From assembly GCA_021372865.1 (NCBI GenBank), contig JAJFTO010000019.1:186001-250000 (forward strand): 64,000 bases of DNA. The letters run 5' to 3'. Origin of the DNA: Porphyromonadaceae bacterium. GTDB taxonomy: Bacteria > Bacteroidota > Bacteroidia > Bacteroidales > Dysgonomonadaceae. Positions 9,389 to 55,447 of the stretch are shown piece by piece; position 1 is the stretch's first letter, and each line of letters begins with the position of its first letter. The notes beneath the pieces were generated by a model. The model did not search any database. It worked only from the letters and a program-made list of their open reading frames with translations, and was not told the DNA's origin. Both the position numbers and the translations under genes were made by a program.

Positions 9389-10798
9389 TCAGAAATCAAG
9401 TAGTTGTTTTAGCTGTTCAGTATATAAATCAATTCGACGCATTTCGCTTGGAATATCAATAGATTGAGGACAAAGCGGGTTGCAAGTTTCGCAACCAATA
9501 CAATGGCTCGATTGTCTTAGTTTTGGAACTTTGCGGTCGTATCCTACCAGATATGCACGTCTTGCTTTGCGATAATTTTCGTCATTGGAGCTTTGCAGGC
9601 GTTTACCTGCACTGATTATTCGGTTATAGTGTCCAAAAACATTCGGAATATCTACTCCATAAGGACAAGGCATGCAATATTGACATTCATTACACTGAAT
9701 ATAATCGGCATTAAGCATAATTTCTGTAACCTTTTCAAGTGCTGCATATTCTTCACTTTCTATCGGTTTTAGCGGTGAAAAAGTCCGTATGTTTTCCTGT
9801 AAATGTTCCATGTAAACCATGCCACTTAGTACTGTAATAACACTTTCAGGCGTGCCCGCATATCTAAAAGCCCACGATGCAGCACTGTCTTCCGGATGGA
9901 TTGCGGCTAGTATATTCAATGCTTCTGTACCTAATCGGGAAAGACGACCACCAAGCAAAGGCTCCATTATTATTGCAGGAATATTTCGTTTTTCAAGTTC
10001 ACCCAGCAAATATTCAGCATTGACATTTCTGCCGGAAGCGTGCTGCCAGTCGATGTAATTCATCTGTATCTGAACAAAATCCCATTTGACATCAGAATTT
10101 AGGGCATAGTCAAAAACTCTCACATCTCCATGGAAAGAAAAACCAAGATTACGGATCCTACCGGCTTCACGTTCTTTCAGCAAATAATTCAACAGTCCAT
10201 TACTGATAAAACGTTCTTCATAAAAGGGAATGCCTGTTTCACCTCCTATTGAATGAAGTAAATAATAATCTAAATAATCAGTTTGTAGATTTTTAAGTGA
10301 ATTATGGTACATTTCTACTGAGGCATTAAAAAGCTCTCTTTGAGACAATCCTTTACCAGCAAAACGCTGATTTGACATTTTGGTTGCTATAAAATAAGTG
10401 CCTCTTGGATGTTTACTTAATGCAATACCTGTTGCAGCCTCTGACCATCCTCTCACATAAGGAGGTGCTGTGTCGAAATAGTTCACACCATGTGCTATGG
10501 CATAATCAACAAGCTCATTTACTGCATCCTGGTCAATTTCTTCACCAGTGCCATCAGCTTTCTTACGCAGCGGCCAACGCATACATCCGTACCCCAAAAG
10601 TGAAACTTTATCACCCGTAGAAGGTACTACCCGATATGTCATTTTATCAGTAGGCACTTCTACCATTGTGTTACCTGCAGTGGATTCTTTTTTCTCTGAT
10701 TTGCAACCGGATAATGACAATGATGTCGCAGTTGCAACAGATGCTGCTCCGATTGTTTTCAGAAAATGACGGCGTTGTATATTGTTCTTATTGTTCAT
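9389..10798 (-). CDS. Tat-exported aldo/keto reductase lipoprotein with C-terminal ferredoxin domain
   Basis: 469 aa. The N-terminus has a twin-arginine motif (RRHFLK, R9-R10) and a lipobox ending at Cys32, so it is predicted to be exported folded and lipid-anchored outside the cytoplasm. Residues ~55-340 are an aldo/keto reductase barrel with the tetrad Asp (NYFDTAPPY), Tyr, Lys (IATKMS) and His (LLHSIGG). The last ~120 residues hold two cysteine groups, CNECQYCMPCPYGVDIP and CIGCETCNPLCPQSIDIP, for [4Fe-4S] clusters. It lies 30 bp downstream of a membrane polyferredoxin, its likely electron donor, since NADPH is not expected in the periplasm. Substrate unknown. By eye both genes are more AT-rich than the neighbours. 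Confidence 0.85.
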   Translation of the reverse strand: MNNKNNIQRRHFLKTIGAASVATATSLSLSGCKSEKKESTAGNTMVEVPTDKMTYRVVPSTGDKVSLLGYGCMRWPLRKKADGTGEEIDQDAVNELVDYAIAHGVNYFDTAPPYVRGWSEAATGIALSKHPRGTYFIATKMSNQRFAGKGLSQRELFNASVEMYHNSLKNLQTDYLDYYLLHSIGGETGIPFYEERFISNGLLNYLLKEREAGRIRNLGFSFHGDVRVFDYALNSDVKWDFVQIQMNYIDWQHASGRNVNAEYLLGELEKRNIPAIIMEPLLGGRLSRLGTEALNILAAIHPEDSAASWAFRYAGTPESVITVLSGMVYMEHLQENIRTFSPLKPIESEEYAALEKVTEIMLNADYIQCNECQYCMPCPYGVDIPNVFGHYNRIISAGKRLQSSNDENYRKARRAYLVGYDRKVPKLRQSSHCIGCETCNPLCPQSIDIPSEMRRIDLYTEQLKQLLDF

Positions 10799-10828
10799 AT
10801 TTGTTGCTTAGTGATTTCGATGATTTTC

Positions 10829-12331
10829 TCAGATAACATGGTGTCTCACATTACCTTCTACGTAAATAGCACTATATGGACGTGCCGGGCACAAATTCTC
10901 ACATGCACCACATCCTATACACAACTCTTTATCTACAAATGGTATTTTCAGAGAATCTTTTTTATCAGGGTTCCTACTAATTAGTGTAATGGCTCCGGTC
11001 GGACAATGACGTTGGCAATTATCACATTTAATTTCATCTTTATTGACTAAGCACAGATCTTTTAGCCAAAATGCAATTCCAACTGAGATCGATGATTTAT
11101 CGACAACTGTGATAGGTTGTATTGCTCCGGTAGGACATACTTTAGAACACTCAATACACTCCGGCCGGCAATAGCCTCGTTCGAAAAACATTTCGGGCTG
11201 CATCAGTGTATCTATTTTGTTAGATGGACGTAGTACATTATTTGGACAAGACGACACGCAGAGCTGACATGCTGTGCATTTGTTATTCATATGTTGTGCA
11301 CTTAATGCTCCAGGTGGAACGATCGGCGTTTTGCGGTCCGGTATTTTCTTATCAATAATTTCTGCTAAACCACCATCACCTCTTACTACTGGCTGTTGTG
11401 CCTTGAGTACAGTTCCGGCAGCTAAAAATGATAGCGAAGAAAGCGCTTTACGACGAGTCATCAAACGGTTTCCCGATTTTAAAGTTTTATCGATTGTTTT
11501 TTTATGAAATTTAATTGGAGAATAACTCATAGAATCAAATTTGCATTTTTCTATACAATTGAAACAATTCACGCATCTGCTATAATCTATATGCATTGAT
11601 TTTACATCAATACACGACGATTTACAACTGCGTTCGCAAATATTGCATTGTGTGCATTTTTCCTTATCAAATGTAATTCTGAAAAACGAAAATTTTGACA
11701 GTAAACCTAAAAAGGATCCCACAGGACAAACAGTGTTACAGTATGTACGTCCATGACGCCAGGCAAGATAACTTACCATACCCATCGTAAGAAGCGAAGT
11801 TCCAAAAATTATCCAACCTTTAAACCAAATTTCGGTAGAATAGAAAACATAGCTATTTACCTGTTCAGCAAAAAACGAAAGAATATTATTTCCCCAATAA
11901 TATAGAGGGGAAAAAAAATTATTGACGATACGCCCGTAAGCAGCATAAGGGTCGAGCAAAGCTACAATAACACCAATACCTGCAACTATTGTCACAATAA
12001 ATAGTGCCAGGAAGCCGTATCGTAACCATGATTTTGCACGAGCGTAACGAAAACGGTACTTTTTCCCTCTTCTACGTGACGAGAGATGTGAAACACCGTC
12101 CTGAAATACACCTAACGGACAAATTGTTGAACAATAAACCCTCCCGAAAAGTAAAGTAAGCAATAAAATAATAACTATTGCGATAATATTTACCCCCAAT
12201 AATGCAGGTATAAGCTGAACTTTGGCTACCCAACCCAATACTTTATTAAAAATACCTGTAAAATCAAGGAACAACATCGTAATGCTTACAAAAAATATTA
12301 CGGCAAAAATTCGTCTGATTTTTTTCAACAT
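10829..12331 (-). CDS. NapH-like membrane polyferredoxin with a second exported-type ferredoxin half
   Basis: 500 aa. Residues 1-205 contain about four membrane segments and two CxxxCP motifs (CSTICP ~67-72, CNTVCP ~198-203) as in NapH/CcoG-type quinol-linked proteins. Ferredoxin motifs follow (CTQCNICERSCKSSC ~226-240, CVNCFNC ~253-259). At 292-311 the segment TRRKALSSLSFLAAGTVLKA looks like an internal twin-arginine signal. Further ferredoxin motifs come after it (CTACQLCVSSCP, CIECSKVCP, CDNCQRHCP, CIGCGACENLCP). The layout suggests a fusion of a cytoplasm-facing and a periplasm-facing Fe-S module. It is the first gene of the operon with the aldo/keto reductase and would pass electrons across the membrane to it. 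Confidence 0.8.
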   Translation of the reverse strand: MLKKIRRIFAVIFFVSITMLFLDFTGIFNKVLGWVAKVQLIPALLGVNIIAIVIILLLTLLFGRVYCSTICPLGVFQDGVSHLSSRRRGKKYRFRYARAKSWLRYGFLALFIVTIVAGIGVIVALLDPYAAYGRIVNNFFSPLYYWGNNILSFFAEQVNSYVFYSTEIWFKGWIIFGTSLLTMGMVSYLAWRHGRTYCNTVCPVGSFLGLLSKFSFFRITFDKEKCTQCNICERSCKSSCIDVKSMHIDYSRCVNCFNCIEKCKFDSMSYSPIKFHKKTIDKTLKSGNRLMTRRKALSSLSFLAAGTVLKAQQPVVRGDGGLAEIIDKKIPDRKTPIVPPGALSAQHMNNKCTACQLCVSSCPNNVLRPSNKIDTLMQPEMFFERGYCRPECIECSKVCPTGAIQPITVVDKSSISVGIAFWLKDLCLVNKDEIKCDNCQRHCPTGAITLISRNPDKKDSLKIPFVDKELCIGCGACENLCPARPYSAIYVEGNVRHHVI

Positions 12332-12716: not shown

Positions 12717-13613
12717 TTATTTGGCGTAGCTTTCTTTCACAAAAGCAGCATTGGTCAAATAATCGTAGCTTTCCTTCACTCCTTCGAAAGGAGTTCCGGT
12801 ATATCTTTCCACTTCCACGACCATATATTTGGCCCCGGCTTTATCAGCGTTATTATAGATGGCATCAAATCCTACCATTCCGCTTTGACCCAACTCTTTG
12901 CTATCTTTAATATGGAGGATCTCAAAACGTCCCGGATATTCATTGAAATAATCTACCGGAGCTTTTTGTCCCATGACTACCCAATAGACATCCATCTGGA
13001 AGAATACTTTCGTAGGATCCGTATTTTTAAGCAGATAATCATATATCAGCTCACCTTCCACTTTGGTAAATTCGAAGTTGTGGTTGTGATATCCAAACCG
13101 AATGCCTGCAGCATTACATTTTTCACCAATCTTGTTGAAATAGTCGCTGTAAGCCTTCAGGTCGTCCAACGTTTTTGGGGTCGGTATCCAGGGAACCACC
13201 AGATATTTCATTCCGGCTTCTTTGTGGGCCTTAATAGCGGCATCCCACCATGCCCATGTTTCATCCCAGTTGGTCTTGGATGCTGGCTCTGCAAGGGGTT
13301 TGCCTGCATGAGACGACAACACTACCATACCGGCATCCTCGATCGATTTTTTGAAATCGGCAGGAGCCAACCCATAGAACTTCCCGTCTTTATAACCGGC
13401 AGTTTCCACACCGGTGTAACCCGTTTGAGCCACCTTGGCAATAGTACCGGGATAATCGGACTTGATATCATCCCGCACGGAGTATAGCTGCAAGTAAATC
13501 TCTTTTTTTATTGCAGGAGCAGATTCAGCTTTTTGTTGTCCCTGAATACAGCCTGAGAAAATAACCATGCTGCACAGAAGGGCTAAACTTAATAACTTGG
13601 AATATTTTTTCAT
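12717..13613 (-). CDS. Sugar phosphate isomerase/epimerase-like TIM-barrel lipoprotein
   Basis: 298 aa. A lipoprotein signal ends at Cys22 (IFSGC). The rest is an AP-endonuclease-2-like TIM barrel of the xylose-isomerase-like superfamily. Metal-ligand-type segments are visible (GYHNHNFEF, FQMDVYWV, LHIKDSK, VVEVER). Family members isomerise, epimerise or cleave sugar derivatives, and in clusters with DUF1080 and Gfo/Idh/MocA proteins they are linked to 3-keto-sugar handling. Despite the family name, an exported lipoprotein is unlikely to act on a phosphorylated sugar. It is the last gene of the cluster, 66 bp after the DUF1080 gene. Confidence 0.82.
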   Translation of the reverse strand: MKKYSKLLSLALLCSMVIFSGCIQGQQKAESAPAIKKEIYLQLYSVRDDIKSDYPGTIAKVAQTGYTGVETAGYKDGKFYGLAPADFKKSIEDAGMVVLSSHAGKPLAEPASKTNWDETWAWWDAAIKAHKEAGMKYLVVPWIPTPKTLDDLKAYSDYFNKIGEKCNAAGIRFGYHNHNFEFTKVEGELIYDYLLKNTDPTKVFFQMDVYWVVMGQKAPVDYFNEYPGRFEILHIKDSKELGQSGMVGFDAIYNNADKAGAKYMVVEVERYTGTPFEGVKESYDYLTNAAFVKESYAK

Positions 13614-13679
13614 TATATCTGTTTTTTATAAAAGGACATTTCCGCCCAATGACGGAAACATCCTTTTATGTGTAAAAGA

Positions 13680-14453
13680 TTAGTCCAATATTTTAATTTT
13701 GATATTCCTGTACCAGACATCGTCGCCATGGTCCTGCAAGCCGATGAATCCTTCATGGTTTTCACCACCCGCATTCAGGAAGTTAGGCCAGTCTTTGAAT
13801 TTGCTATTTGAAACCATCTCTTTCCATGCGTCGGTCCACAAATGATATTCTACCACATTTTCCCCATTCTGGGAGTGAATAACGGTTCCCTTATACACCA
13901 TGATTCCACCGGTATTCCACTCTCCTGCAGGTTTTGCATTCTGAGGAACGGCAGGAACCAGGTCATAAAGTGATGCCGACTGACGGTTTCCATCCTTTCC
14001 TAATTTTGCATCGGGATGTCTCTCGTTGTCCAGAACCTGATATTCGGGTGAAGATTCGTATATAGGTTTCCCTTCTACCTCCTGAGCCAGATAGAAAACG
14101 CCACTGTTGCCGCCTTGCGATACCTTCCACTCAAAGGTAAGTTCAAAATTCTTAAATTTCTGATCATAAATGATGTCTCCACCATCTTTTGCCCCTGCTT
14201 CGCCCATACCCGAACCGTTGATTTTGATGGCACCATCTTCAATGGTCCATGCTTTAGGCATATCGGTACGGTTGTAACCACGCCAGCCAGTGAAATCGGT
14301 TCCGTTAAAAAGAGTGATCCAGCCTTCATCGGCAGCAACCACTGCAGTGGAATCGGCAGACTCCGTGGCATTTGATTGTTTATTTGCATTGGTGCATGAT
14401 GTAAATGCCATTGCAGTCATTATTAGTAAACTAAATAAATAAACCTTTTTCAT
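13680..14453 (-). CDS. DUF1080 / 3-keto-disaccharide hydrolase-like lipoprotein
   Basis: 257 aa. A lipoprotein signal ends at Cys20 (FTSC). The mature part is a concanavalin-like beta-sandwich of the DUF1080 family, with typical segments GWITLFNGTDFTGWRGY, DIIYDQKFKNFELTFEWK and GNSGVFYLAQ, and a C-terminal GFIGLQDHGDDVWYRNIKIK. Some family members cleave 3-keto-glycosides made by Gfo/Idh/MocA dehydrogenases. Two such enzymes are encoded immediately upstream, so the same role is likely here, outside the cytoplasm. Substrate range cannot be read from sequence. Confidence 0.85.
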   Translation of the reverse strand: MKKVYLFSLLIMTAMAFTSCTNANKQSNATESADSTAVVAADEGWITLFNGTDFTGWRGYNRTDMPKAWTIEDGAIKINGSGMGEAGAKDGGDIIYDQKFKNFELTFEWKVSQGGNSGVFYLAQEVEGKPIYESSPEYQVLDNERHPDAKLGKDGNRQSASLYDLVPAVPQNAKPAGEWNTGGIMVYKGTVIHSQNGENVVEYHLWTDAWKEMVSNSKFKDWPNFLNAGGENHEGFIGLQDHGDDVWYRNIKIKILD

Positions 14454-14542
14454 AACTATTTTCTTTTTAATTAAACTGATAAATATTAAACAGCAAGGGA
14501 ATAATGATGAATGAAATCATCATTATTCCCTCTGATTCATCT

Positions 14543-16015
14543 TTACTTCGGCATTTCCGGCAATTTATAGCCGTTCTTATAAGTATGCTTGATCAGTTCA
14601 TTTGCATATTCGATAGCATTCACTGGTTCTGTCCAGGTCTTTTTGAAAGTAGGATGCCCGTCGGTAATCTTGAAACCATCTTCAATAATGGAACGGATCG
14701 TGGCATCGGCAGGAATGTTGGTAAAACGCATGTTTTCACCATCCCATTCAAGTTCCTGATTCAATGTTTGCAGCCTTACAGCAAGTACACCCATGACAAC
14801 CATTTCGTTGAAAGGACCTGCTTGTGAGAAAGGAGAAGCTGTTTCAACGCGGTTCTCCGGAGATTCTTTGCAAGCACGTACCCAATCCATTTCGTGGGAA
14901 AGGGTTACCTCACGCTGTGTCTTCGGAGAATTTGGGTTACGGCCAGATACCAGCCACGGATTTACACCATAGCAACCGCAGATAAGAGTATCTTTTGTTC
15001 CGTGGAAAATTACGCCCCCACCCTGGTCGTTCAGATTCTTGCCTGCTGGAACGCCTTCAGGGCGCACCGGCGTAAGTCCACCATCATACCAGTAAACCTC
15101 CACTTCAGGCATTGCCACCTTCGGCAGATTGTCACGCTGTGGGAAAATATATTTCACCATCTGGGCATTGGGAGCACAATCGTTCAGCAACATGGTAGAT
15201 GATCCCTGCACCTTTGTCGGATAACCCAGGTTCAAACCTTTGAATACAGGATGAAGAATATGGCAAGCCATATCACCCAGTGCACCTGTACCAAAATCCC
15301 ACCATCCACGCCAGTTCCAGGGGTGATAAATATTATTGAAAGGACGCTTGTTGGCCGGCCCGATGAAGAGATCCCAGTTCAGCGTCTGGGGTATTGGGCT
15401 TGCTTCTTTCGGAGTCATCAGTCCCTGTGGCCAGATGGGTCTGTCGGTGAATGTTTCCACCTTCGTCACCTCTCCGATCTGCCCATCGCTGATCCAGTCT
15501 ACAATCTGACGGACACCGGGCTTCGATGAACCCTGATTTCCCATTTGGGTAGCCACTTTGTATTTTTTGGCCAATTTGGTCAATAAACGAGATTCATAAA
15601 CGCTGTGAGTGAGCGGTTTCTGACAATAGACATGTTTGCCCATGGTCATTGCTTCAGCGGCAATGATGGCGTGGGTATGGTCGGCTGTGGCTATCAGCAC
15701 GGCATCAATACTTTTTCCCAGCTCATCATACATTTTTCTGTAATCATAGTATTTTTTTGCTTTGGGGAAATGTTCGAAAACACGTTGACTGTATTTCCAA
15801 TCCACATCACAAAGGCCAACAATGTTCTCGCTTTCCAGATTTTTCAGGTTTCCAAAACCCATTCCGCCGATACCCACTGCGCCAATATTCAGCTTATCAC
15901 TCGGAGCTGTATAGCCCATACTCTTCCCTAGTACCGATGAAGGCACAACTGTAAGGCCGGCTGCTGCAATAGCGCCGGTACCTAAGAATTTTCTTCTTGA
16001 AATTTTTGATGACAT
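14543..16015 (-). CDS. Tat-exported Gfo/Idh/MocA oxidoreductase (QKP type)
   Basis: 490 aa. The N-terminus SRRKFLGTGAIAAAGL is a twin-arginine signal (R7-R8), so the enzyme should be exported with its nucleotide cofactor already bound. The Rossmann fold starts with GAVGIGGMG (~44-52). The conserved EKP signature is changed to QKP (HVYCQKPLTHSV). The C-terminal half is the usual alpha/beta catalytic domain. It probably oxidises or reduces a sugar or glycoside. It is paired with a second, EKP-type dehydrogenase 40 bp upstream. Confidence 0.85.
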   Translation of the reverse strand: MSSKISRRKFLGTGAIAAAGLTVVPSSVLGKSMGYTAPSDKLNIGAVGIGGMGFGNLKNLESENIVGLCDVDWKYSQRVFEHFPKAKKYYDYRKMYDELGKSIDAVLIATADHTHAIIAAEAMTMGKHVYCQKPLTHSVYESRLLTKLAKKYKVATQMGNQGSSKPGVRQIVDWISDGQIGEVTKVETFTDRPIWPQGLMTPKEASPIPQTLNWDLFIGPANKRPFNNIYHPWNWRGWWDFGTGALGDMACHILHPVFKGLNLGYPTKVQGSSTMLLNDCAPNAQMVKYIFPQRDNLPKVAMPEVEVYWYDGGLTPVRPEGVPAGKNLNDQGGGVIFHGTKDTLICGCYGVNPWLVSGRNPNSPKTQREVTLSHEMDWVRACKESPENRVETASPFSQAGPFNEMVVMGVLAVRLQTLNQELEWDGENMRFTNIPADATIRSIIEDGFKITDGHPTFKKTWTEPVNAIEYANELIKHTYKNGYKLPEMPK

Positions 16016-16055
16016 AAGTACTTTTTTTAGGTGTTAACTCTTAGTTAATAACGAT

Positions 16056-17723
16056 TTATTCTCTTGTAATCAATTCCTTGTCTTTATCCCAGTACATTGT
16101 TCTTCCTTCCAGGTAGGCCCGTGTTCCCATGTGTGCCGAGATGGCTTCTTCAAAGCCCTGATCAATGCCGCATGAGGGTTGTTTTCCGTTCCGGATACAG
16201 TCGATCCATTCCTTCAGATGCAAAAAAGTGGTATTGTATCGTTTTCCATCGATAAAGGAATAAAGCAACCCTCTTTCAAGGAAATAACGTTCTGTAGCTG
16301 AAGAAACAGCATCGACACTTTGACCTGGGACATAAGTGTAAAATGGTTCTCCCGGTTTTATAATACCATCTTCAATTTTCTTATGGTATTGCTCGCTTCT
16401 CGGATCTACAGTCACAGTAAGGGTGTTGCCTACTTCCATGGTAGCGTCATGCCCCATAATCTTTCTGGTGCGTTTAAACTGATTGGCAAGTGTGGCAGAA
16501 TAGAACATGGTCAAATCTTTATCCCTATACTCGAAAACAGTTTGTAGTACATCGGGCACCGTACGTCCGTCCTTAAAAAAATAAACACCACCGGAAGAAC
16601 TTGCGGACGAAGGAATGCCCAGATTGAGAATCTGGTTCATTGCGTCATATTCATGCGTCAGCAGATCGCCGCTCAGGCCGGTGCTGTAATCCCACCAGCA
16701 ACGCCAACGGAAAAAACGCTCCAGACTGAATTTATCCCGGGACTCGGGACCCACATATTTTGTTACGCCCGCAGAAGTCATGTAATCCATATATTCTTTG
16801 ATGCGCTCCGGGTCACCCTCAAATTGTTTCCAGTCGATGGTATCCCGACTTGCTTTTTCATGAATCGGATAAACCCATGCACCATTTGGATCGTTCCGGT
16901 TCGTACCTGTTTCAATCAGGGTTATTTTCCCCAGCAATCCTTTCTCAATTATCTGGCGGGCACGTTCATATGCTTCAATCTGTCTGTTTTGATGTCCCAG
17001 CTGAAAAACAAGATGCGGGTTTTCCTTTACAACGGTACGGAGTGCGTAGGTCTCCGGTACCGTCCAAGTCATCGGTTTCTCTACGTATACATGTTTCCCC
17101 GCTTTGATGGCATCCATGGCCATGGTACCATGCCAGTGGTCAGGCGCAGCAATTACCACGGCATCCACATCGGGCGCAGCGAGCAACTCTTTGTAATGAA
17201 GATATCGCTTGGGCTCACGGCCATAACGGCCATTTTTACCTTCCCTGTAAATATTGGAGCCAGCCTTCACGGCATCTTCGCCATATACATCAAAAATATC
17301 GCATACAGCCGTAATCTCTATCCGCAGATCCTCCTGCGCAAGAAAATCCCGGTAGCGGGTGTTTTCAGAATCTTTACGTTCCTGCTCTTTCAAGTCTTCC
17401 ACATAGGCAGGTGTTGCAAAACCAAGAGCCTGCATCAGTAGTTTGCCCCTTATTCCGAAACCGATGATACCCAACCTGAGGACCGGTGCATCGGAGTTGG
17501 TAGGGGTATAAGCAGCCATATCACTTTTAAAACGGAACATTTCAGCCGCATTGCGGTTGTTCAGTTCTGTTTTTTTCTTTTGATATACGCCGTAAGCCAT
17601 TGCCCCCAAAACGGGCACAGCAACCATTGCTTTGAGAGCATCACGGCGTCCCTGAGATACCTTTTTTTCCGGTTTATTTACGTTTTCGTTCTGTATATCG
17701 TTTTTTTCTTCACTCATAGACAA
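16056..17723 (-). CDS. Tat-type Gfo/Idh/MocA oxidoreductase (EKP type)
   Basis: 555 aa, longer than the standard ~350-450. A charged 25-residue leader precedes a twin-arginine motif (GRRDALK, R26-R27) and a short hydrophobic stretch (AMVAVPVLGAMAYGVY) without an obvious cleavage site, so it may stay anchored. The Rossmann motif is LGIIGFGIRG (~83-92) and the signature HVYVEKPMTW is intact. It is probably the main glycoside 3-dehydrogenase of the cluster, with the QKP-type partner acting on related intermediates; this split of roles is inference. It is followed after 40 bp by the partner gene and preceded after 67 bp by a DoxX-like gene. Confidence 0.85.
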   Translation of the reverse strand: MSMSEEKNDIQNENVNKPEKKVSQGRRDALKAMVAVPVLGAMAYGVYQKKKTELNNRNAAEMFRFKSDMAAYTPTNSDAPVLRLGIIGFGIRGKLLMQALGFATPAYVEDLKEQERKDSENTRYRDFLAQEDLRIEITAVCDIFDVYGEDAVKAGSNIYREGKNGRYGREPKRYLHYKELLAAPDVDAVVIAAPDHWHGTMAMDAIKAGKHVYVEKPMTWTVPETYALRTVVKENPHLVFQLGHQNRQIEAYERARQIIEKGLLGKITLIETGTNRNDPNGAWVYPIHEKASRDTIDWKQFEGDPERIKEYMDYMTSAGVTKYVGPESRDKFSLERFFRWRCWWDYSTGLSGDLLTHEYDAMNQILNLGIPSSASSSGGVYFFKDGRTVPDVLQTVFEYRDKDLTMFYSATLANQFKRTRKIMGHDATMEVGNTLTVTVDPRSEQYHKKIEDGIIKPGEPFYTYVPGQSVDAVSSATERYFLERGLLYSFIDGKRYNTTFLHLKEWIDCIRNGKQPSCGIDQGFEEAISAHMGTRAYLEGRTMYWDKDKELITRE

Positions 17724-20355: not shown

Positions 20356-23300
20356 TCAGTATTCATCCCAGCTCTTTATTTCGATATCCTCCAACCCCAT
20401 TTTGCAGAACGCAGTAATAAAGGCGCTGGCCAGACGGGCGTTGGTGATGAGCGGAATGTTGTGATCCACTGCTCCACGCCGGATGATATAGCCGTTCGTC
20501 AGTTCCCTGCGCGTCACATCCTTCGGAATGTTGATGATCAGGTCGAATTGCTTGTCGGCAATCATCTGCCGTATGTTGTTATCCCCATCCTCGTCGGGCC
20601 AATTCACATCGGTGGCATCGATACCATTGTCACCGAGGAACTTACAGGTACCGTGACTGGCAAAAAGGTTAAATCCTTTCTCGCCCAGCAATTTGCAGGC
20701 TTCCAGCAGATCCACCTTCGACTTCATCTCGCCTGAAGAGATAAGAATCCCTTTTTTCGGTATTTTATATCCCACGGAGAGCATCGACTTCAGGATGGCG
20801 TCGGAAAAATCTTCACCAATGCAGCCCACCTCGCCGGTAGATGACATGTCCACGCCCAACACCGGGTCGGTATTCTGCAGACGGGAGAAAGAAAACTGCG
20901 ATGCTTTTACTCCGATATAGTCCAGATCGAACACCGAGCTATCGGGTTTTGCGTAAGGCGCATTCAGCATGATGCGGGTGGCAGTTTCAATGAAGTTGTG
21001 TTTCAGCACCTTCGACACAAACGGGAAGGAGCGGGAAGCACGCAGGTTGCATTCAATCACCTTGATGTCGTTGTTCTTGGCCAGATACTGGATGTTGAAG
21101 GGGCCGCTTATGTTCAGTGCGCGGGCTATCTGCTTCGAAATCTTCTTTACACGCCGCATGGTCTCAAAATAGATCTTCTGCGCTGGGAATACCAGTGTAG
21201 CATCGCCTGAGTGCACCCCGGCAAATTCCACATGCTCCGAAATGGCGTATTCTACCACTTCTCCATCCCTGGCCACTGCATCGAATTCGATCTCTTTGGC
21301 ATTCTGCATAAAGCTGGAGATCACCACAGGGTATTCCTTCGATACATTGACGGCCATCTTCAGGAAAATGCGCATCTGCTCTCTGTCGTAACACACATTC
21401 ATGGCTGCACCGGAGAGTACGTAGGAGGGACGAATCAGCAACGGGAAGCCCACCTCTTCGATGAAGGCATCAATCTCAGCAATGCTGCTTGCCTCTGTCC
21501 AGCGTGGCTGGTCGATACCCAATTCATCGAGCATGGCTGAAAACTTGTGCCTGTTTTCAGCACGGTCAATGGAGAGGGGTGAAGTCCCCAGAATGGGTAC
21601 CTGTTGTCTGTGCAACTTCATTGCCAGGTTATTGGGTATCTGTCCGCCCACAGAGACAATGACGCCCTTCGGTTTTTCCACGTCAATGACATCCATCACC
21701 CGTTCGAAGGTGAGTTCATCGAAATAGAGCCGGTCACACATATCGTAATCGGTTGACACCGTCTCGGGGTTGTAGTTGATCATCACCGAAGCATATCCCA
21801 GTTCACGTGCAGTCTGCACTGCATTTACCGAACACCAGTCGAACTCCACCGACGAGCCAATGCGGTAGGCACCCGAGCCCAGCACAATGACCGCTTCTTT
21901 ATCTTCCTTGTGTGGCGTATAAGCTTTCTCCGATCCATAGGTGAAATAGAGATAATTTGTTTTGTCGGGATTTTCCGAGGCCACGGTATTGATCCGGCGA
22001 ACTACCGGCTTGATTCCCATATTTTTGCGGTAATTCCTTACCCGGATCAGTTCATTTTCCAAAGTGCCGGCAGGTTCTTCCACAAAACGGGCAATCTGAA
22101 AATCAGAGAAACCAAGCCTTTTGGCTTCTTTGAGCACCTCCTCAGACAGTTCTTCTATTTTGTTATACGACGCAAGTACTTTTGAATAATTGTATATATT
22201 TTCCAGTTTTTCCAGAAACCAGTGATCAATCTTTGTAAGTTCCTCGATCTGTGCCACACTGTATCCTTTTTCGAATGCATCGGCAATGGCGAAGATGCGA
22301 AGGTCAGTCGGTTTGGCCAGTGACTCCTCCACATTGTCGAAGGTAATCTCCCTGTTCCCTACAAAACCGTGCATCCCCTGTCCGATCATGCGCAACCCTT
22401 TCTGGATGATCTCTTCGAACGACTGTCCGATAGACATGATCTCACCCACCGACTTCATGGAGGAGCCGATCTCGTGGCTCACGCCGTAGAACTTATTCAG
22501 GTCCCAGCGGGGTATCTTCACAATCATGTAGTCCACCGCAGGTGCTATATAGGCCGAGTTGGGCGTACCCTGTTCGCCGATCTGGTCGAGGGTATAACCC
22601 AGCGCCAGCTTGGTAGCCACAAAGGCCAACGGATATCCCGATGCCTTGGAGGCAAGTGCAGAGGAACGACTCAGGCGGGCATTGATCTCGATGATACGGT
22701 AGTCATTGGTAGTTGCATTGAATGCATACTGTATGTTACACTCGCCCACAATGCCAATGTGGCGAACAACCTTTCCTGCGATATCCTCCAACAGGGAGAT
22801 TTGCTCTTTGGTGAGCGTAATGATAGGTGCCACCACGATACTTTCGCCGGTATGGATACCCAGCGGGTCGAAGTTTTCCATCGGCACCACCGTGAAACAG
22901 TGGTCGTTGCTGTCGCGAATCACCTCAAACTCTATCTCCTTCCATCCTTTCAGACTCTCCTCCACCAGAATCTGGTTCGAAAAGGAGAGGGCACTTTTGC
23001 AAAGTTCAACAAATTCCGCTTCATTTTCACAGATTCCTGAACCCTGCCCTCCCAGTGCATAGGCAGAGCGCACCATGATGGGGAAGCCTATCTCACGGGC
23101 CGCAGCCAATGCATCTTCCAGCGATTCTACCGCATGAGACAAAGGTGTTTTGGCATCAATCTCTTTCAGTTTCTTCACGAACAGGTCACGGTCTTCGGTG
23201 ATCATGATGGCCTCCACCGACGTCCCCAGCACCCGTACGCCATACTTCTCCAGCGTACCGCTCAGGTAAAGTTCGGTTCCGCAATTCAGGGCGGTCTGGC

Positions 23301-23568
23301 CACCAAAGGCAAGCAGGATGCCATCGGGTTGTTCTTTCTGAATCACCTTCTCCACGAAGTAGGGTGTGATGGGCAGGAAATAAACCTTGTCGGCCACCCC
23401 CTTCGATGTTTGAATGGTAGCGATGTTCGGGTTGATGAGCACCGTCTCTATTCCCTCCTCCCGCATTGCTTTCAATGCCTGTGAACCGGAATAATCAAAT
23501 TCTCCCGCCTGTCCGATCTTCAGGGCGCCGGAACCCAGTAAAATAACTTTTTTAATTGATTGATCCAT
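20356..23568 (-). CDS. carB: Carbamoyl-phosphate synthase large chain, paralog 1
   Basis: 1070 aa, the full length for CarB. It makes carbamoyl phosphate from bicarbonate, ammonia and two ATP for pyrimidine and arginine synthesis. Both ATP-grasp halves are present, each with its GSGA(L/Y)(K/R)IG start, and a C-terminal MGS-like allosteric domain follows (~930-1070) with SHGT where the other paralog has TGGT. No frameshift or missing motif is seen. It is the last gene of a carA-carB-carB run, separated from the upstream paralog by a 62-bp spacer filled with octamer repeats. Which copy serves which pathway cannot be told from sequence. Confidence 0.93.
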   Translation of the reverse strand: MDQSIKKVILLGSGALKIGQAGEFDYSGSQALKAMREEGIETVLINPNIATIQTSKGVADKVYFLPITPYFVEKVIQKEQPDGILLAFGGQTALNCGTELYLSGTLEKYGVRVLGTSVEAIMITEDRDLFVKKLKEIDAKTPLSHAVESLEDALAAAREIGFPIMVRSAYALGGQGSGICENEAEFVELCKSALSFSNQILVEESLKGWKEIEFEVIRDSNDHCFTVVPMENFDPLGIHTGESIVVAPIITLTKEQISLLEDIAGKVVRHIGIVGECNIQYAFNATTNDYRIIEINARLSRSSALASKASGYPLAFVATKLALGYTLDQIGEQGTPNSAYIAPAVDYMIVKIPRWDLNKFYGVSHEIGSSMKSVGEIMSIGQSFEEIIQKGLRMIGQGMHGFVGNREITFDNVEESLAKPTDLRIFAIADAFEKGYSVAQIEELTKIDHWFLEKLENIYNYSKVLASYNKIEELSEEVLKEAKRLGFSDFQIARFVEEPAGTLENELIRVRNYRKNMGIKPVVRRINTVASENPDKTNYLYFTYGSEKAYTPHKEDKEAVIVLGSGAYRIGSSVEFDWCSVNAVQTARELGYASVMINYNPETVSTDYDMCDRLYFDELTFERVMDVIDVEKPKGVIVSVGGQIPNNLAMKLHRQQVPILGTSPLSIDRAENRHKFSAMLDELGIDQPRWTEASSIAEIDAFIEEVGFPLLIRPSYVLSGAAMNVCYDREQMRIFLKMAVNVSKEYPVVISSFMQNAKEIEFDAVARDGEVVEYAISEHVEFAGVHSGDATLVFPAQKIYFETMRRVKKISKQIARALNISGPFNIQYLAKNNDIKVIECNLRASRSFPFVSKVLKHNFIETATRIMLNAPYAKPDSSVFDLDYIGVKASQFSFSRLQNTDPVLGVDMSSTGEVGCIGEDFSDAILKSMLSVGYKIPKKGILISSGEMKSKVDLLEACKLLGEKGFNLFASHGTCKFLGDNGIDATDVNWPDEDGDNNIRQMIADKQFDLIINIPKDVTRRELTNGYIIRRGAVDHNIPLITNARLASAFITAFCKMGLEDIEIKSWDEY

Positions 23569-23570
23569 TA

Positions 23571-23634
23571 TTGATGTGTTGATGTGTTGATGTGTTGATG
23601 TGTTGATTTGCTAATCTGCTAATCTGCTAATCAA
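23571..23634 (+). repeat. Octamer tandem repeat array
   Basis: Eight consecutive 8-bp units: four TTGATGTG, one TTGATTTG, two CTAATCTG and a final CTAATCAA. They fill the whole spacer between the two carB genes. Confidence 0.95.
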
Positions 23635-26600
23635 TTATATTCTTCCCAATGTTTAATTTCTATATCCTCACGCGTGATCTTGCAGAAAGCTTTGATGAAA
23701 GCGCTTGCCAGTCGGGCGTTAGTAATCAGTGGAATATTGTAATCGATTGCTCCGCGACGAATACGGTAACCGTTGGTCAGTTCTCTTTCTGTCAGATTCT
23801 TGGGAATATTGATGATCAAGTCGAACTTTTTTTCTGCGATCATATCGTTTACCTTCAGCGTGGCATTTTCATCATCGGGCCATGCCACAAGGGTACTGTT
23901 CACGCCATTTTCTTCCAAAAATTTTTGTGTACCGCCGGTGGCGTACAATGCATATCCGTTTTTCTGTAAAAGCCGGCATGCATCCAACAGATCTATTTTC
24001 GATTTCGTTCCGCCGGAAGAGATCATGATGTTTTTTTCGGGAACGCGATAGCCTACTGCCAGCATCGATGTGAGCAAAGCATCATCGAACTGGTTCCCAA
24101 TCGCACCGACTTCACCCGTAGAAGCCATATCTACACCCAGTACGGGATCGGCCTTCTGCAGACGGGTAAAAGAGAACTGTGGTGCTTTTATTCCTACATA
24201 ATCGAGCTCAAATTCTGATTTTTCAGGTTTTATAACTGGAATTTCAAGCATCACTTTGGTTGCAAGCTCTATAAAATTAATTTTCAATATTTTGGAAACA
24301 AAAGGAAATGATCTCGAAGCGCGAAGATTACATTCTATCACCTTGATATCGTTGTCTTTTGCCAGGAACTGAATATTGAACGGGCCGGTAATATTTAATG
24401 CTTTGGCGATCTGTCGTGTAATCTGTTTAATCCTCCGGGCAGTCTGCACATAGATTTTCTGCGCAGGAAACAGGATGGTGGCGTCTCCGGAGTGTACACC
24501 TGCAAATTCCACATGTTCGGAGATGGCATACACCACCAGCTCACCATTGTGTGCAACCGCATCCATCTCAATTTCCTTTGATTCCTCAATAAATTCGGAG
24601 ACGACCACCGGATACCGGCTCGATACTTCCGTGGCAAGAGTCAGGAACCGTTCCAGTTCACTGTTGTTTGAACAGACGTTCATTGCTGCGCCGGAGAGTA
24701 CATAGGAAGGTCTTACCAGCAATGGAAAACCCACCTCGTCGGCGAAATGATGAATTTCACTGAGCGTGGTCAGCTCCCTCCATCTCGGCTGGTCTATCTC
24801 CAGCCTGTCGAGCATGGAGGAGAATTTATGCCTATCCTCTGCATTGTCAATACTTTTGGCTGATGTCCCCAGTATGTTTACCCCTGAGTTATCCAGCCTC
24901 ACAGCCAGGTTGTTGGGTATCTGTCCACCCACAGAGACAATCACACCATACGGGTTCTCCAGTTCAATGATATCCATCACCCGTTCGTACGTCAACTCAT
25001 CGAAGTAGAGCCGGTCGCACATATCATAATCGGTCGATACCGTCTCCGGGTTGTAGTTGATCATCACCGAGCGAAAACCTTCCTTGCGCACCGTATCGAG
25101 GGCATTTACCGAACACCAGTCGAACTCCACCGACGAGCCGATGCGGTAAGCTCCCGATCCCAGTACAATCACCGAACGGCGATCACCCAGGTAGTGAACA
25201 TCATTCTCCGACCCGTTGTAGGTAAGATAGAGATAGTTGGTCTGTGCGGGGTATTCTGCTGCCAGCGTGTCAATCTGTTTTACTACCGGAAGGATATCTT
25301 TTTTCTTTCTGTAACCGCGAATGACTGTCGGTGCCGCATCGTCCGTCTCTTCTTTCCACAGAGCCCTGGCAATCTGAAAGTCCGAAAAGCCCTGTTGTTT
25401 GGCTCTCTTGAGGATTTCATCAAAATCGTTGTTTCCGTTTTTTTCTAAATCCACCGCTGACGGGGTATACCCTTCCAGCGTTTCAGCTGTCAGCACAATC
25501 TGGTAGAGTTTATGAAGAAACCAGCGGTCGATTTTTGTCAGTTCATGAATCTGATCCACCGTATATCCTTTTCGAAAAGCCTTGCTGATCACGAAGATAC
25601 GTTGATCAGTCGGCTCACGCAATGCTTTGTCGATGTCGTCGATGATGAGCTCCTTATTCTCCACAAAGCCATGCATACCCAGTCCGATCATGCGAAGCCC
25701 TTTTTGAATGGCCTCTTCAAAGGTACGTCCGATAGCCATGATTTCGCCGACTGACTTCATGCTGGAGCCGATTTCTTTGGATACACCGCTGAACTTACCC
25801 AGATCCCAACGGGGAATTTTTACCACAATGTAGTCCAATGCTGGTTCAAAGAAAGCACTGGTCGACTTCGTAACCGAATTTTTCAGGTCGAAAAGTCCAA
25901 ATCCCAGTCCCAGTTTGGCCGCGACAAAAGCCAGAGGATATCCGGTTGCCTTGGAAGCCAGCGCAGAAGAGCGGCTCAGGCGGGCATTCACCTCAATCAC
26001 CCGGTAATCTTCTGATTCGGGATCGAAGGCATACTGCACATTGCACTCGCCCACGATGCCGATGTGACGGACAATCTGAATGGCCAGCTCCCGCAATTTA
26101 TGATATTCTGAGTTGGTGAGTGTCTGTGAGGGAGCCACCACAATGCTCTCGCCAGTGTGAATACCCAGCGGGTCGAAGTTTTCCATGTTACAGACCGTGA
26201 TGCAATTGTCGTATCGGTCGCGTACCACCTCATACTCTATTTCTTTCCACCCTTTCAGCGACTTCTCAATCAACAGCTGGCCGGAGTAGTTAAACGCCTT
26301 GCCAGCAAGCGATTTCAGCTCCTCTGCATCGTTACAGAAACCCGAACCGAGTCCGCCCAGTGCATAGGCAGCCCGCACGATGATGGGGTAACCCAGCTTG
26401 CCGGCAGCTTGCAATGCATCCTCCAGGGTAGAAACGGCAAAACTTTGAATGGTTTTCACGTCGATCTGATCGAGCTTCTTCACAAACAGATCCCGGTCTT
26501 CGGTATCCATGATCGCCTGTACGGGGGTACCCAGCACCTGCAAATCAAATTTTTCAAACACACCGGACTGATAAAGAGCAACCCCACAGTTCAATGCTGT

Positions 26601-26927
26601 CTGTCCGCCAAAGGCGAGCAGGATGCCATCGGGCCGTTCACGGGCTATCACCTTCTCCACAAAGTAAGGAGTAACTGGTAGAAAGTATATTTTATCGGCC
26701 ACTCCTTCTGAGGTCTGCACCGTGGCGATATTCGGATTGATCAGGATTGTTTCTTTCCCTTCCTCTCGCAGGGCTTTCAATGCCTGTGAACCGGAGTAGT
26801 CGAATTCTCCCGCCTCACCGATCTTGAGTGCACCCGATCCCAGCACAAGGACTTTACGGATTTCCCTCTCGCTGTGTAAAATTTCTTTTTTTGGCGCCAA
26901 TATCTGATCTGTCATATTTTTAATCAC
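23631..26927 (-). CDS. carB: Carbamoyl-phosphate synthase large chain, paralog 2
   Basis: 1098 aa. It is closely similar to the adjacent copy throughout and complete, with two ATP-grasp halves and an MGS-like domain. It has an N-terminal extension of ~20 residues and starts GSGALKIGEAGEFDY where the other copy has GQAGEFDY. A start at an internal Met (26915) is also possible. It follows carA by only 16 bp, so it is the more likely direct CarA partner. The pair arose by duplication and both have stayed intact. Confidence 0.93.
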   Translation of the reverse strand: MIKNMTDQILAPKKEILHSEREIRKVLVLGSGALKIGEAGEFDYSGSQALKALREEGKETILINPNIATVQTSEGVADKIYFLPVTPYFVEKVIARERPDGILLAFGGQTALNCGVALYQSGVFEKFDLQVLGTPVQAIMDTEDRDLFVKKLDQIDVKTIQSFAVSTLEDALQAAGKLGYPIIVRAAYALGGLGSGFCNDAEELKSLAGKAFNYSGQLLIEKSLKGWKEIEYEVVRDRYDNCITVCNMENFDPLGIHTGESIVVAPSQTLTNSEYHKLRELAIQIVRHIGIVGECNVQYAFDPESEDYRVIEVNARLSRSSALASKATGYPLAFVAAKLGLGFGLFDLKNSVTKSTSAFFEPALDYIVVKIPRWDLGKFSGVSKEIGSSMKSVGEIMAIGRTFEEAIQKGLRMIGLGMHGFVENKELIIDDIDKALREPTDQRIFVISKAFRKGYTVDQIHELTKIDRWFLHKLYQIVLTAETLEGYTPSAVDLEKNGNNDFDEILKRAKQQGFSDFQIARALWKEETDDAAPTVIRGYRKKKDILPVVKQIDTLAAEYPAQTNYLYLTYNGSENDVHYLGDRRSVIVLGSGAYRIGSSVEFDWCSVNALDTVRKEGFRSVMINYNPETVSTDYDMCDRLYFDELTYERVMDIIELENPYGVIVSVGGQIPNNLAVRLDNSGVNILGTSAKSIDNAEDRHKFSSMLDRLEIDQPRWRELTTLSEIHHFADEVGFPLLVRPSYVLSGAAMNVCSNNSELERFLTLATEVSSRYPVVVSEFIEESKEIEMDAVAHNGELVVYAISEHVEFAGVHSGDATILFPAQKIYVQTARRIKQITRQIAKALNITGPFNIQFLAKDNDIKVIECNLRASRSFPFVSKILKINFIELATKVMLEIPVIKPEKSEFELDYVGIKAPQFSFTRLQKADPVLGVDMASTGEVGAIGNQFDDALLTSMLAVGYRVPEKNIMISSGGTKSKIDLLDACRLLQKNGYALYATGGTQKFLEENGVNSTLVAWPDDENATLKVNDMIAEKKFDLIINIPKNLTERELTNGYRIRRGAIDYNIPLITNARLASAFIKAFCKITREDIEIKHWEEYN

Positions 26928-26943
26928 TAATGATTTCTGAAAA

Positions 26944-28023
26944 CTATCTTGCAGCCAGCAACTTCACAAACTCTTCAAAAAAGAAACGGGTGTCTGTTGG
27001 ACCCCCTGCAGCCTCGGGGTGAAACTGTACCGAGAAAAAAGGTTTTGTTTTGTGCCGGATTCCTTCGTTGGTACCATCGTTCATATTGATAAACCAGGGT
27101 TCCCATTCATCACCCAGAAGCGATTCATCCACCGCATAGCCGTGGTTTTGCGAAGTGATGAAGCAGGCATTGGAACCGATCATTCGTACCGGCTGATTGT
27201 GGCTGCGATGCCCGTATTTCAGTTTGTAGGTGTTGGCCCCCGCGGCCTTGGCCAGCAGCTGGTTTCCCATACAAATGCCAAAAACCGGTTTATCCTGATG
27301 CATTGCTTTTCGAATATGCTCTACCGTGATTGCACAATAATCGGGGTTTCCAGGTCCGTTGGAAATAAAGAGTCCGTCGTAATCCATCCCGGTGAAGTCA
27401 TAGTCCCATGGCACCCTGATCAGATGTACATTTCGTTTGATCAACTCCCTCACAATGTTCAATTTTGCACCGCAATCGATCAGCACTACTTTTTTCTCTC
27501 CATGCCCGTACTCGACCGGATCTTTGCAACTTACCCTTGCCACCAGGTTTTCGCTTCCCGGATCATAAAAATCGATTTCATCCTCCTCCGCAAAGACGAT
27601 CTTACCCAGCATGGATCCTTTTTCCCGCAATACTTTTGTGAGCAGACGGGTATCTATACCGAAGATGCCGGGAACTCCATTCTGTCGCAACCATTCACCC
27701 AGCCCTTCCTGTGCATTCCAGTGTGAATAATCGTCGCAATAATCCTGCACGATCAGACCCGACGCATGGATGCGTGTGGACTCAAAAAAATCGGAAACTC
27801 CGTCTGTTTCGCTTTGTGCGGGAACTCCGTAATTTCCGATGATGGGATATGTGAGTGTTAAAATTTGTCCTTCGTAGGAGGGGTCTGACAGACTTTCGGG
27901 ATAACCGACCATTGCTGTACTGAAAACGACCTCCCCCGATGATGCCTTTTCGGCTCCAAACGATTGTCCATGAAAAACCGTCCCGTTTTCAAGGATCAAC
28001 CGCACCGGTTTGTATCTGTGCAT
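26944..28023 (-). CDS. carA: Carbamoyl-phosphate synthase small chain (glutaminase)
   Basis: 359 aa. It hydrolyses glutamine and channels ammonia to CarB. The N-terminal CPSase small-chain domain (LILENGTVFHGQSFGA...) is followed by a class I glutamine amidotransferase with nucleophile Cys in FGICMGNQLL and the His/Glu pair in FHPEAAGGP. It heads the operon with both carB genes. An exact -7 box TATCTTTG lies 48 bp upstream. No other pyrimidine or arginine gene is next to it. Confidence 0.95.
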   Translation of the reverse strand: MHRYKPVRLILENGTVFHGQSFGAEKASSGEVVFSTAMVGYPESLSDPSYEGQILTLTYPIIGNYGVPAQSETDGVSDFFESTRIHASGLIVQDYCDDYSHWNAQEGLGEWLRQNGVPGIFGIDTRLLTKVLREKGSMLGKIVFAEEDEIDFYDPGSENLVARVSCKDPVEYGHGEKKVVLIDCGAKLNIVRELIKRNVHLIRVPWDYDFTGMDYDGLFISNGPGNPDYCAITVEHIRKAMHQDKPVFGICMGNQLLAKAAGANTYKLKYGHRSHNQPVRMIGSNACFITSQNHGYAVDESLLGDEWEPWFINMNDGTNEGIRHKTKPFFSVQFHPEAAGGPTDTRFFFEEFVKLLAAR

Positions 28024-53959: not shown

Positions 53960-55447
53960 TTAACTGCGGGGATCATCAATTCTGCCAATAAAGAGTATTA
54001 CCCCTGTACTTTTCTCCCTGATCAGCAGCATAAACGGGCGATTGGCAAAAAAGTGGACGGGTTCATTCGATGTCTTCATAACTCCGTAACCCACTATCAT
54101 CATGGATGTAACAGCGGCAACCTCTGTACCCTCTTCATTCACTTCTATAAATGCTTTCTGTCTAATATTGGAGACATTGAAAGCATCATCTGAAAGATGT
54201 GCGAAACCTCCGCTGAAAATTTTTTGCATCCCCACATTTTTCAATGGCTGATTGAAAGGTATATTGCATTCTATCCTTAAACGGGGTAATTTCAACCATA
54301 CTCGTTCACTCTTCATCTGATTGACAATACGCTCCCAATGAGCACTACTCAGGTATTCAATCAGTTGACTGATATTTTCATTGTCGGGTGGAAGAACTGC
54401 CATCATGCTGTACGCTCCGTTCCCATATGGTAATTCAACACATTGAAGATATGAGTCGCTATAATAAGGCAGGGAGGTGGTTTGTTCCATCATCTCCACC
54501 CTCAATGTTTTGCCGTCGGACTGAATAAAATCGTCCGGTTTTGTTTGCTCTTTCCTGAACCTTTTCTCCATCTGCCATTTACTCTTGAAATAGATGGCAT
54601 TTGCCAGATACATCATCATATCTCCTGGCATCGGAGTGGCAGCAATATGATTGATCTTGCCATTTGTTTTATCAAGGCACCATTTGTTGATAACATTGGC
54701 CGCATTGGAATCATTGAAATCGAGCGCTTTTATATCCGTATCAAAATATCTCTTACTGGTTTCTTTAAACGCTTCTTTCATTGAAAAATCACTACGATAC
54801 CAGATGGAATTGGCGATAGCAATATCCGTGAACCGATCTGCTTCCAATAATCTCCGGTTTATGGTTCGATAATAGTCGTTAAGTTCGGATTCTGAAAAGT
54901 TAGTGATACCCCAAATCTGGTTCATTTCTGTACGGGTATCACCCGAAGAACCGTTGTAGAGAGTCCCGAGAGCCATATTAAGACTTATAGGAGAAAAAAA
55001 TGCATTGGGTCCTTGCAACCTTGAGATTTCCAAGAAAACGTTAAACGAAAACCTGTTGTCGGCCTCTGCCTTCTCGCGCTGCTTCGGAGTCAACAGGATC
55101 GGTTTCGCAGGCATTATTCCTTCTGAAATGTTGTCTTCCATCACCACGTCGATCCTCTGGCGGCCCTCAACTGCAATTTCCCGGTTCTCCATGCCAACGA
55201 AAGAAAATTGAAGAATAGCATCTTTTGGTACGGCAATAACGTACCTTCCATCCATATCAGTCACGGTCCCCTGTACAGTTCCTTTCACAATAACCGTCGT
55301 ACCCGGAAACGTCTCACCCGACTGGTCCATCACCGTACCTGTCACCCTGTGCTCTGTTTGCTGTGCTTTTATGCCGGTAATATGCAGGACTGTCAGTAAC
55401 AAAAGCTTGACCAGTATAATCCTGTACCACATTACATCACCTCTCAT
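53960..55447 (-). CDS. Serpin with N-terminal CarboxypepD_reg-like domain
   Basis: 495 aa. A signal peptide (~7-28) is followed by a CarboxypepD_reg-like beta-sandwich (~33-110, GTVMDQSGETFPGTTVIVKG...) and a full serpin domain (~125-495). The serpin hinge NEEGTEVAAVTSM and the C-terminal NRPFMLLIREKSTGVILFIGRI are intact, so it should be inhibitory. Counting from the hinge Gly as P15, P1 falls near Tyr (IVGYG), which would favour chymotrypsin-like targets; the loop is longer than usual, so this is uncertain. A start at 55432 is also possible. It follows the vWA gene by 54 bp. Confidence 0.88.
   Translation of the reverse strand: MRGDVMWYRIILVKLLLLTVLHITGIKAQQTEHRVTGTVMDQSGETFPGTTVIVKGTVQGTVTDMDGRYVIAVPKDAILQFSFVGMENREIAVEGRQRIDVVMEDNISEGIMPAKPILLTPKQREKAEADNRFSFNVFLEISRLQGPNAFFSPISLNMALGTLYNGSSGDTRTEMNQIWGITNFSESELNDYYRTINRRLLEADRFTDIAIANSIWYRSDFSMKEAFKETSKRYFDTDIKALDFNDSNAANVINKWCLDKTNGKINHIAATPMPGDMMMYLANAIYFKSKWQMEKRFRKEQTKPDDFIQSDGKTLRVEMMEQTTSLPYYSDSYLQCVELPYGNGAYSMMAVLPPDNENISQLIEYLSSAHWERIVNQMKSERVWLKLPRLRIECNIPFNQPLKNVGMQKIFSGGFAHLSDDAFNVSNIRQKAFIEVNEEGTEVAAVTSMMIVGYGVMKTSNEPVHFFANRPFMLLIREKSTGVILFIGRIDDPRS

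Follow-up and report, generated by a model that had tools for sequence, protein, structure and literature searches.

A Tat-signal iron-sulfur aldo/keto reductase and a NapH-NapG-type polyferredoxin as a predicted extracytoplasmic redox pair of Bacteroidales

Background

Modular electron transfer through NapH-like proteins has been proposed for extracytosolic oxidoreductases (PMC8238504), and assembly by both the Sec and the Tat pathways was shown for a NapH-NapG-type polyferredoxin, the deltaproteobacterial MLMS-1 PFD (Tooke et al. 2017, PMC5449189). In the latter, a twin-arginine helix links a NapH-like four-helix part, which has cytoplasmic clusters, to a periplasmic domain of NapG type with four clusters, an organization that the polyferredoxin described here shares. 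As far as its account of insertion extends, PMC5449189 describes no iron-sulfur (Fe-S) aldo/keto reductase (AKR) partner, whereas polyferredoxins of the present type are paired with such an enzyme, often in a tat operon. The NapGH quinol dehydrogenase of periplasmic nitrate reductase has homologous domains and a presumed inside-to-outside electron path; unlike NapGH, however, our polyferredoxin is one fused chain, scores far under the equivalog cut-offs and has an AKR as partner instead of a molybdoenzyme. The flavinylated NapH-like systems share the modular conduit for extracytosolic oxidoreductases but use ApbE-flavinylated FMN domains (PMC8238504), none of which was found by Pfam in either protein of the pair.

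Two further groups of proteins resemble parts of this arrangement. MsrPQ (YedYZ), in which a Tat-exported reductase is fed by an inner-membrane electron carrier, is alike in working principle but differs in its cofactors, haem and molybdenum, and has no homology to the pair. Shorter Fe-S AKRs, of which those without an evident export signal are presumably the COG1453 group, share the AKR barrel, a characteristic change in the nicotinamide site and the C-terminal cysteine motifs. As far as our searches show, Fe-S AKRs have neither a solved structure nor a described role.

In this study we examined a stretch of 64,000 nucleotides (the window) from a Porphyromonadaceae bacterium (GCA_021372865.1, JAJFTO010000019.1, positions 186,001 to 250,000), which is part of contig C19 in a draft genome of 2.7 Mb. 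A sequence-only reading had proposed a possible transmembrane electron relay to an exported AKR, knowing of no described system of this kind. The polyferredoxin type is in fact already described, while our literature search found no description of a Fe-S AKR-polyferredoxin pair; on the best reading of the sequences, what is new is the Tat-exported Fe-S AKR as a probable partner of NapGH-type extracytoplasmic electron transfer.

Results and discussion

Architecture of the two proteins

The pair occupies the minus strand, the polyferredoxin gene lying upstream of the AKR gene with a gap of exactly 30 bp, and comprises the following features:

9389..10798, minus: Fe-S aldo/keto reductase, Tat-signal lipoprotein, 469 aa (ORF, Pfam, alignment, structure model)
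10757..10774, minus: twin-arginine motif RRHFLK, residues 9-14 (RRxF[LIF]K in 39/41 homologues)
10703..10714, minus: lipobox LSGC32 (strict lipobox pattern in 35/41 homologues)
10253..10474, minus: AKR catalytic tetrad D109, Y114, K140, H182 (invariant in 41 sequences)
9470..9694, minus: predicted C-terminal two-[4Fe-4S] domain, C369/372/375/378 and C433/436/439/443 (Pfam, alignment)
10829..12331, minus: NapH-NapG-type polyferredoxin, 500 aa (profile matches, alignment; architecture as in PMC5449189)
11696..12331, minus: membrane part resembling NapH, with CxxxCP motifs at two places, C67/C71 and C198/C202 (profile, alignment)
11543..11656, minus: ferredoxin-like dicluster, C226/229/232/236 and C253/256/259/263, predicted cytoplasmic (side inferred from NapH)
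11396..11455, minus: Tat motif R293-R294 inside the chain, and helix of low hydrophobicity, residues 293-312 (motif alignment)
10853..11377, minus: NapG-like domain, periplasmic by prediction, with sixteen Cys, all invariant, for four clusters (profile, alignment)

Open reading frames and Pfam matches confirmed the initial description of a Tat-type lipoprotein AKR with two C-terminal four-cysteine motifs next to a polyferredoxin. The AKR N-terminus, MNNKNNIQRRHFLKTIG...LSLSGC32, combines the Tat motif with the lipobox; residues 68-357 match Aldo_ket_red (PF00248; 125 bits, cut-off 24) and residues 368-446 match Fer4_9 (30.7 bits, cut-off 27), and the eight cluster cysteines and four catalytic residues are invariant in the alignment of 41 homologues. 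The closest named relative is Proteiniphilum sp. UBA4084, whose AKR is 95% identical, and against a sister species dN/dS is 0.13 for the AKR and 0.16 for the polyferredoxin.

In the polyferredoxin, residues 48-91 match the NapH-type Fer4_5 (61.8 bits), and the best NCBIfam matches are NapG, NapH and MauM/NapG. The match to the NapH/MauN model (E 2e-20) lies under its curated cut-off and that to NapG at residues 324-483 (E 2e-23) under its equivalog cut-off; since the scores reach only 82.7 bits against a cut-off of 269 for NapG and 67.5 against 234 for NapH, the protein is not filed as NapGH. An internal [RK]R motif is found in 36/36 polyferredoxin homologues, with R294 invariant, as are the cluster cysteines. 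Because of this internal twin-arginine helix we predict a periplasmic location for the four-cluster domain at the C-terminus, and the architecture appears to match the described dual Sec/Tat type, Sec-then-Tat insertion being predicted here. The predicted domain layout likewise makes the cytoplasm-to-periplasm cluster chain proposed at the outset plausible. The structure prediction (pLDDT 56) was too poor for use, docking included.

Co-conservation and genomic context

In the main scan, with one genome per species, 51 AKR relatives were recovered, nearly all from Bacteroidales and including Proteiniphilum, Tannerella, Muribaculaceae, Prevotella and Bacteroidaceae. A polyferredoxin gene lies near the AKR gene on the same strand, usually adjacent, in 48 of these 51 loci, a count that, like those that follow, ignores shared ancestry; it was absent beside the AKR in L100, on a contig of 3.6 kb, and in L138 and L139. 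The usual order is polyferredoxin-AKR, reversed in L096-L098, L101 and L103 (with the genes a few kb apart in L096), and L104 reads AKR-polyferredoxin-AKR. An independent sample drew on 198 genomes from this order; when polyferredoxins up to 6 kb from the AKR were counted, 33/36 long AKRs had this neighbour versus 0/9 of the shorter, more distant Fe-S AKRs (Fisher p 2.5e-7). The distance matrices of the two proteins correlate (r 0.83), a value reached in 0/1000 permutations. The co-occurrence that the sequence-only reading suggested looking for in Bacteroidota is thus found in both samples, and together with the low dN/dS and the invariant residues it places the pair beyond chance association. 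Of the refuting conditions named in that reading, none came true among those that could be checked. A more distant Tat-signal Fe-S AKR (L158) stands without a polyferredoxin nearby.

Across the 51 loci, the neighbours that recur are DUF1893, an ECF-like protein and tatC. ECF-type substrate components and DUF1893 (TM1506) proteins adjoin the pair at L099:9371-10464, L102:9314-10505 and L133:9409-10376, a possible cofactor supply; ECF-like proteins also occur near the DUF362-polyferredoxin pairs of L142-L144. In L097:3708-8751 and the matching part of L096, the polyferredoxin is followed by heterodisulfide-reductase-like CCG and Fer4 genes, one of them encoding a membrane protein.

Elsewhere in the window, positions 12717-17723 (minus strand) hold an exported glycoside 3-oxidation-like cluster, with a Tat-signal BT_2158-family glycoside 3-dehydrogenase, a 3-keto-disaccharide hydrolase, a sugar-isomerase-like lipoprotein and a second Gfo/Idh protein. 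A conserved link between this cluster and the pair was considered and rejected, the cluster being absent from the sister loci L091 (Proteiniphilum sp. UBA4084) and L093 and the recurring neighbours named above being different genes. Also on the minus strand are two tandem full-length carbamoyl-phosphate synthase large chains beside one small chain (20356-28023) and a bacterial serpin with an N-terminal CarboxypepD_reg-like domain (53960-55447).

Export and linkage to the tat genes

Export of the AKR by the Tat pathway, predicted from the window alone, gained support from its relatives. Besides the conservation of the signal in 39 of 41 homologues, tatC lies beside the pair on the same strand in 21/51 loci; tatA is also present in those tatC loci inspected by ORF reading (L092, L099, L116, L121 and L133), and L121 shows the order tatA-tatC-polyferredoxin-AKR. 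The window genome has tatC, located away from the pair, so that a twin-arginine signal and a Tat translocase occur together and the AKR may be classed as a putative Tat substrate. TatC was detected in 31/31 genomes with a long AKR versus 164/198 overall (p 0.0017, uncorrected for relatedness).

The two AKRs without a Tat motif, in L138 and L139, carry Sec-type lipoprotein signals instead, and neither TatC nor a full-length polyferredoxin was detected in their genomes, which are Bacteroidales drafts and maybe incomplete. They form a natural control for the Tat assignment. Both homologues (L138:1154-2383 and L139:1123-2358) keep all eight cluster cysteines despite the Sec-type signal.

A probable exchange of the exported partner

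Polyferredoxin relatives without an AKR adjoin a DUF362 protein in 22/23 surveyed loci, and every DUF362 partner whose sequence was read begins with a twin-arginine signal; none of the AKR loci has DUF362. Maximum-likelihood analysis groups all 57 polyferredoxins linked to an AKR in a single clade (support 100/99), beside which stands the DUF362-linked paralogue of the window genome itself, 45% identical. The conduit thus seems to serve as a general module that changed its exported partner on one occasion, and this swap is the strongest argument for the two products working together. In the window genome, the paralogue follows a Tat-signal DUF362 protein (L142:5148-7659, contig C7); pairs of this kind are widespread in the phylum, and no described function was found for them.

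Fold and cofactor site of the AKR

The AlphaFold model of the AKR (pLDDT 83) matches solved NAD(P)-dependent AKRs, best of all L-galactose dehydrogenases (Z 28.9, rmsd 2.8, 280 aligned residues); SmbA, an AKR-like fold solved with ppGpp, is among the matches, and no Fe-S AKR was listed among the best matches of the PDB search. With its (beta/alpha)8 domain and Asp-Tyr-Lys-His tetrad the protein belongs to the AKR superfamily. When aligned with other AKRs from these bacteria, the exported Fe-S AKRs and L158-L160 read M-E-P-L in place of the nicotinamide-stacking motif W/Y-S-P-L, the stacking aromatic and the small residue after it being replaced by the invariant M278-E279. The adenine loop, SGM-x-Y-M-E-H-L, has no basic residue, while S325-G326 and N336 are retained. 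Both changes would weaken NADP binding, but the protein may nonetheless bind NAD(P).

Independence from NADPH, as originally proposed, does not follow from these changes, because the short Fe-S AKRs share M-E-P-L and the tetrad is intact. Three of these nine were read; L158 has a Tat signal, whereas L159 and L160 have no signal peptide and show the same changes, for which reason we rejected the idea that export caused the loss of the NADPH site. The window genome also encodes a second Tat-signal AKR, in which the Fe-S motifs are absent (L002:1303-2295, contig C9), directly preceded by a gene for what resembles an exported sugar dehydrogenase.

A proposed relay and its alternatives

We consider the most likely function, with slightly better than even chances, to be a complete relay in which the two genes form an operon encoding an extracytoplasmic oxidoreductase, the AKR is exported and docks on the polyferredoxin, and electrons flow between the two. 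Sec would insert the polyferredoxin, with Tat taking over its last helix and the periplasmic domain, and its approximately six [4Fe-4S] clusters and NapH CxxxCP motifs would form a chain that reaches the periplasm from the cytoplasmic face. The AKR would fold in the cytoplasm and gain two [4Fe-4S] clusters before Tat export and lipid anchoring; its ferredoxin domain would then dock on the polyferredoxin, allowing electrons to pass between the latter and the barrel. There the intact D-Y-K-H tetrad would act as the acid-base system for a carbonyl or hydroxyl, perhaps sugar-like, substrate. Clusters cannot normally give single electrons directly to NAD(P), and hydride chemistry driven from them needs a two-electron bridge, either a flavin or a bound nicotinamide; this part probably falls to a cofactor of hydride or flavin type that the protein binds tightly.

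Several observations weigh against this relay. No flavin domain was found in the AKR or the polyferredoxin, which leaves the hydride bridge unexplained. In E. coli, Asp at position +2 of a lipoprotein means retention in the inner membrane, whereas the residue after the lipid cysteine of these AKRs is mostly K or S, so that the lipoprotein might be sorted to the outer membrane, out of the polyferredoxin's reach. Moreover, the Tat-signal AKR of L158 lacks a polyferredoxin nearby, and the cysteine domain is retained in L138 and L139 without Tat signal or polyferredoxin. A stricter version, in which the barrel is driven outside the inner membrane through its own [4Fe-4S] clusters from the trans-membrane polyferredoxin and has given up free NADPH, we regard as doubtful.

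A low-potential donor in the cytoplasm could send electrons outward, or they could run inward and reach menaquinone; by analogy with NapGH we slightly prefer the outward direction. Representative potentials are about -75 mV for menaquinone, -200 mV for carbonyl/alcohol couples and -420 mV for ferredoxin. Carbonyl reduction by menaquinol would therefore be uphill, and the quinol-driven version of the original proposal, whose carbonyl reduction gained no support here, is thermodynamically doubtful; neither reduction from a low-potential cytoplasmic donor nor hydroxyl oxidation into menaquinone meets this obstacle. A quinone partner thus favours oxidation, while ferredoxin would favour reduction. 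The leading alternative reverses the flow, the AKR being a periplasmic sugar or alcohol dehydrogenase that passes electrons through the polyferredoxin to menaquinone, and we rate it a serious candidate with less than even chances. With carbonyl/hydroxyl couples, menaquinone accepts electrons better than it donates them, and among solved structures the NAD(P)-dependent L-galactose dehydrogenases come closest to the AKR (Z 28-29), although similarity of fold and sequence says nothing on direction. NapH-like modules have been proposed for oxidases as well as reductases (PMC8238504), but in NapGH the flow that has been characterised leads outward, to nitrate reductase.

It is unlikely, in our view, that the AKR is exported as a holoenzyme with tightly held NADP(H) and works as a closed dismutase, its Fe-S domain merely docking or sensing. 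Periplasmic glucose-fructose oxidoreductase is exported in this way, with tightly bound NADP(H); the AKR tetrad is invariant, and the second Tat-signal AKR of the window genome indicates that exported AKRs need not use clusters. The substitution of M278-E279 in the stacking site is, however, equally invariant, and such a dismutase would leave the eight invariant cysteines and the strict polyferredoxin linkage unexplained.

Less probable again is a barrel that serves as a binding or repair scaffold instead of oxidising or reducing small carbonyls, the pair doing another periplasmic redox job such as repair: DUF362, the alternative partner, uses the same conduit without evident AKR chemistry, and SmbA is among the structure matches, but the full catalytic tetrad is kept in 41/41 sequences. 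That two unrelated iron-sulfur genes merely share an operon is barely credible, for while both come from large, common families, the co-location in 48/51 and 33/36 cases against 0/9, the occurrence of both gene orders, the correlated divergence and the single polyferredoxin clade all speak against it.

Conclusions

Our analyses suggest that with this conserved pair the cell probably carries out a carbonyl/alcohol reaction, its chemistry predicted, outside the inner membrane by means of wired-in electrons. One branch of the Fe-S AKRs thereby gains a compartment and a likely partner in electron transfer, together with a function that can be tested in Bacteroidales of gut and rumen, whose Tat operon becomes linked to a Fe-S AKR cargo, and the partner swap provides a functional hypothesis for the uncharacterised but widespread DUF362-polyferredoxin pair. 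If it proved true, a cluster-driven AKR, whose gene accompanies the tat genes in Prevotella and related bacteria, would represent a new catalytic mode for the superfamily, and a textbook NADPH family would gain a second power source.
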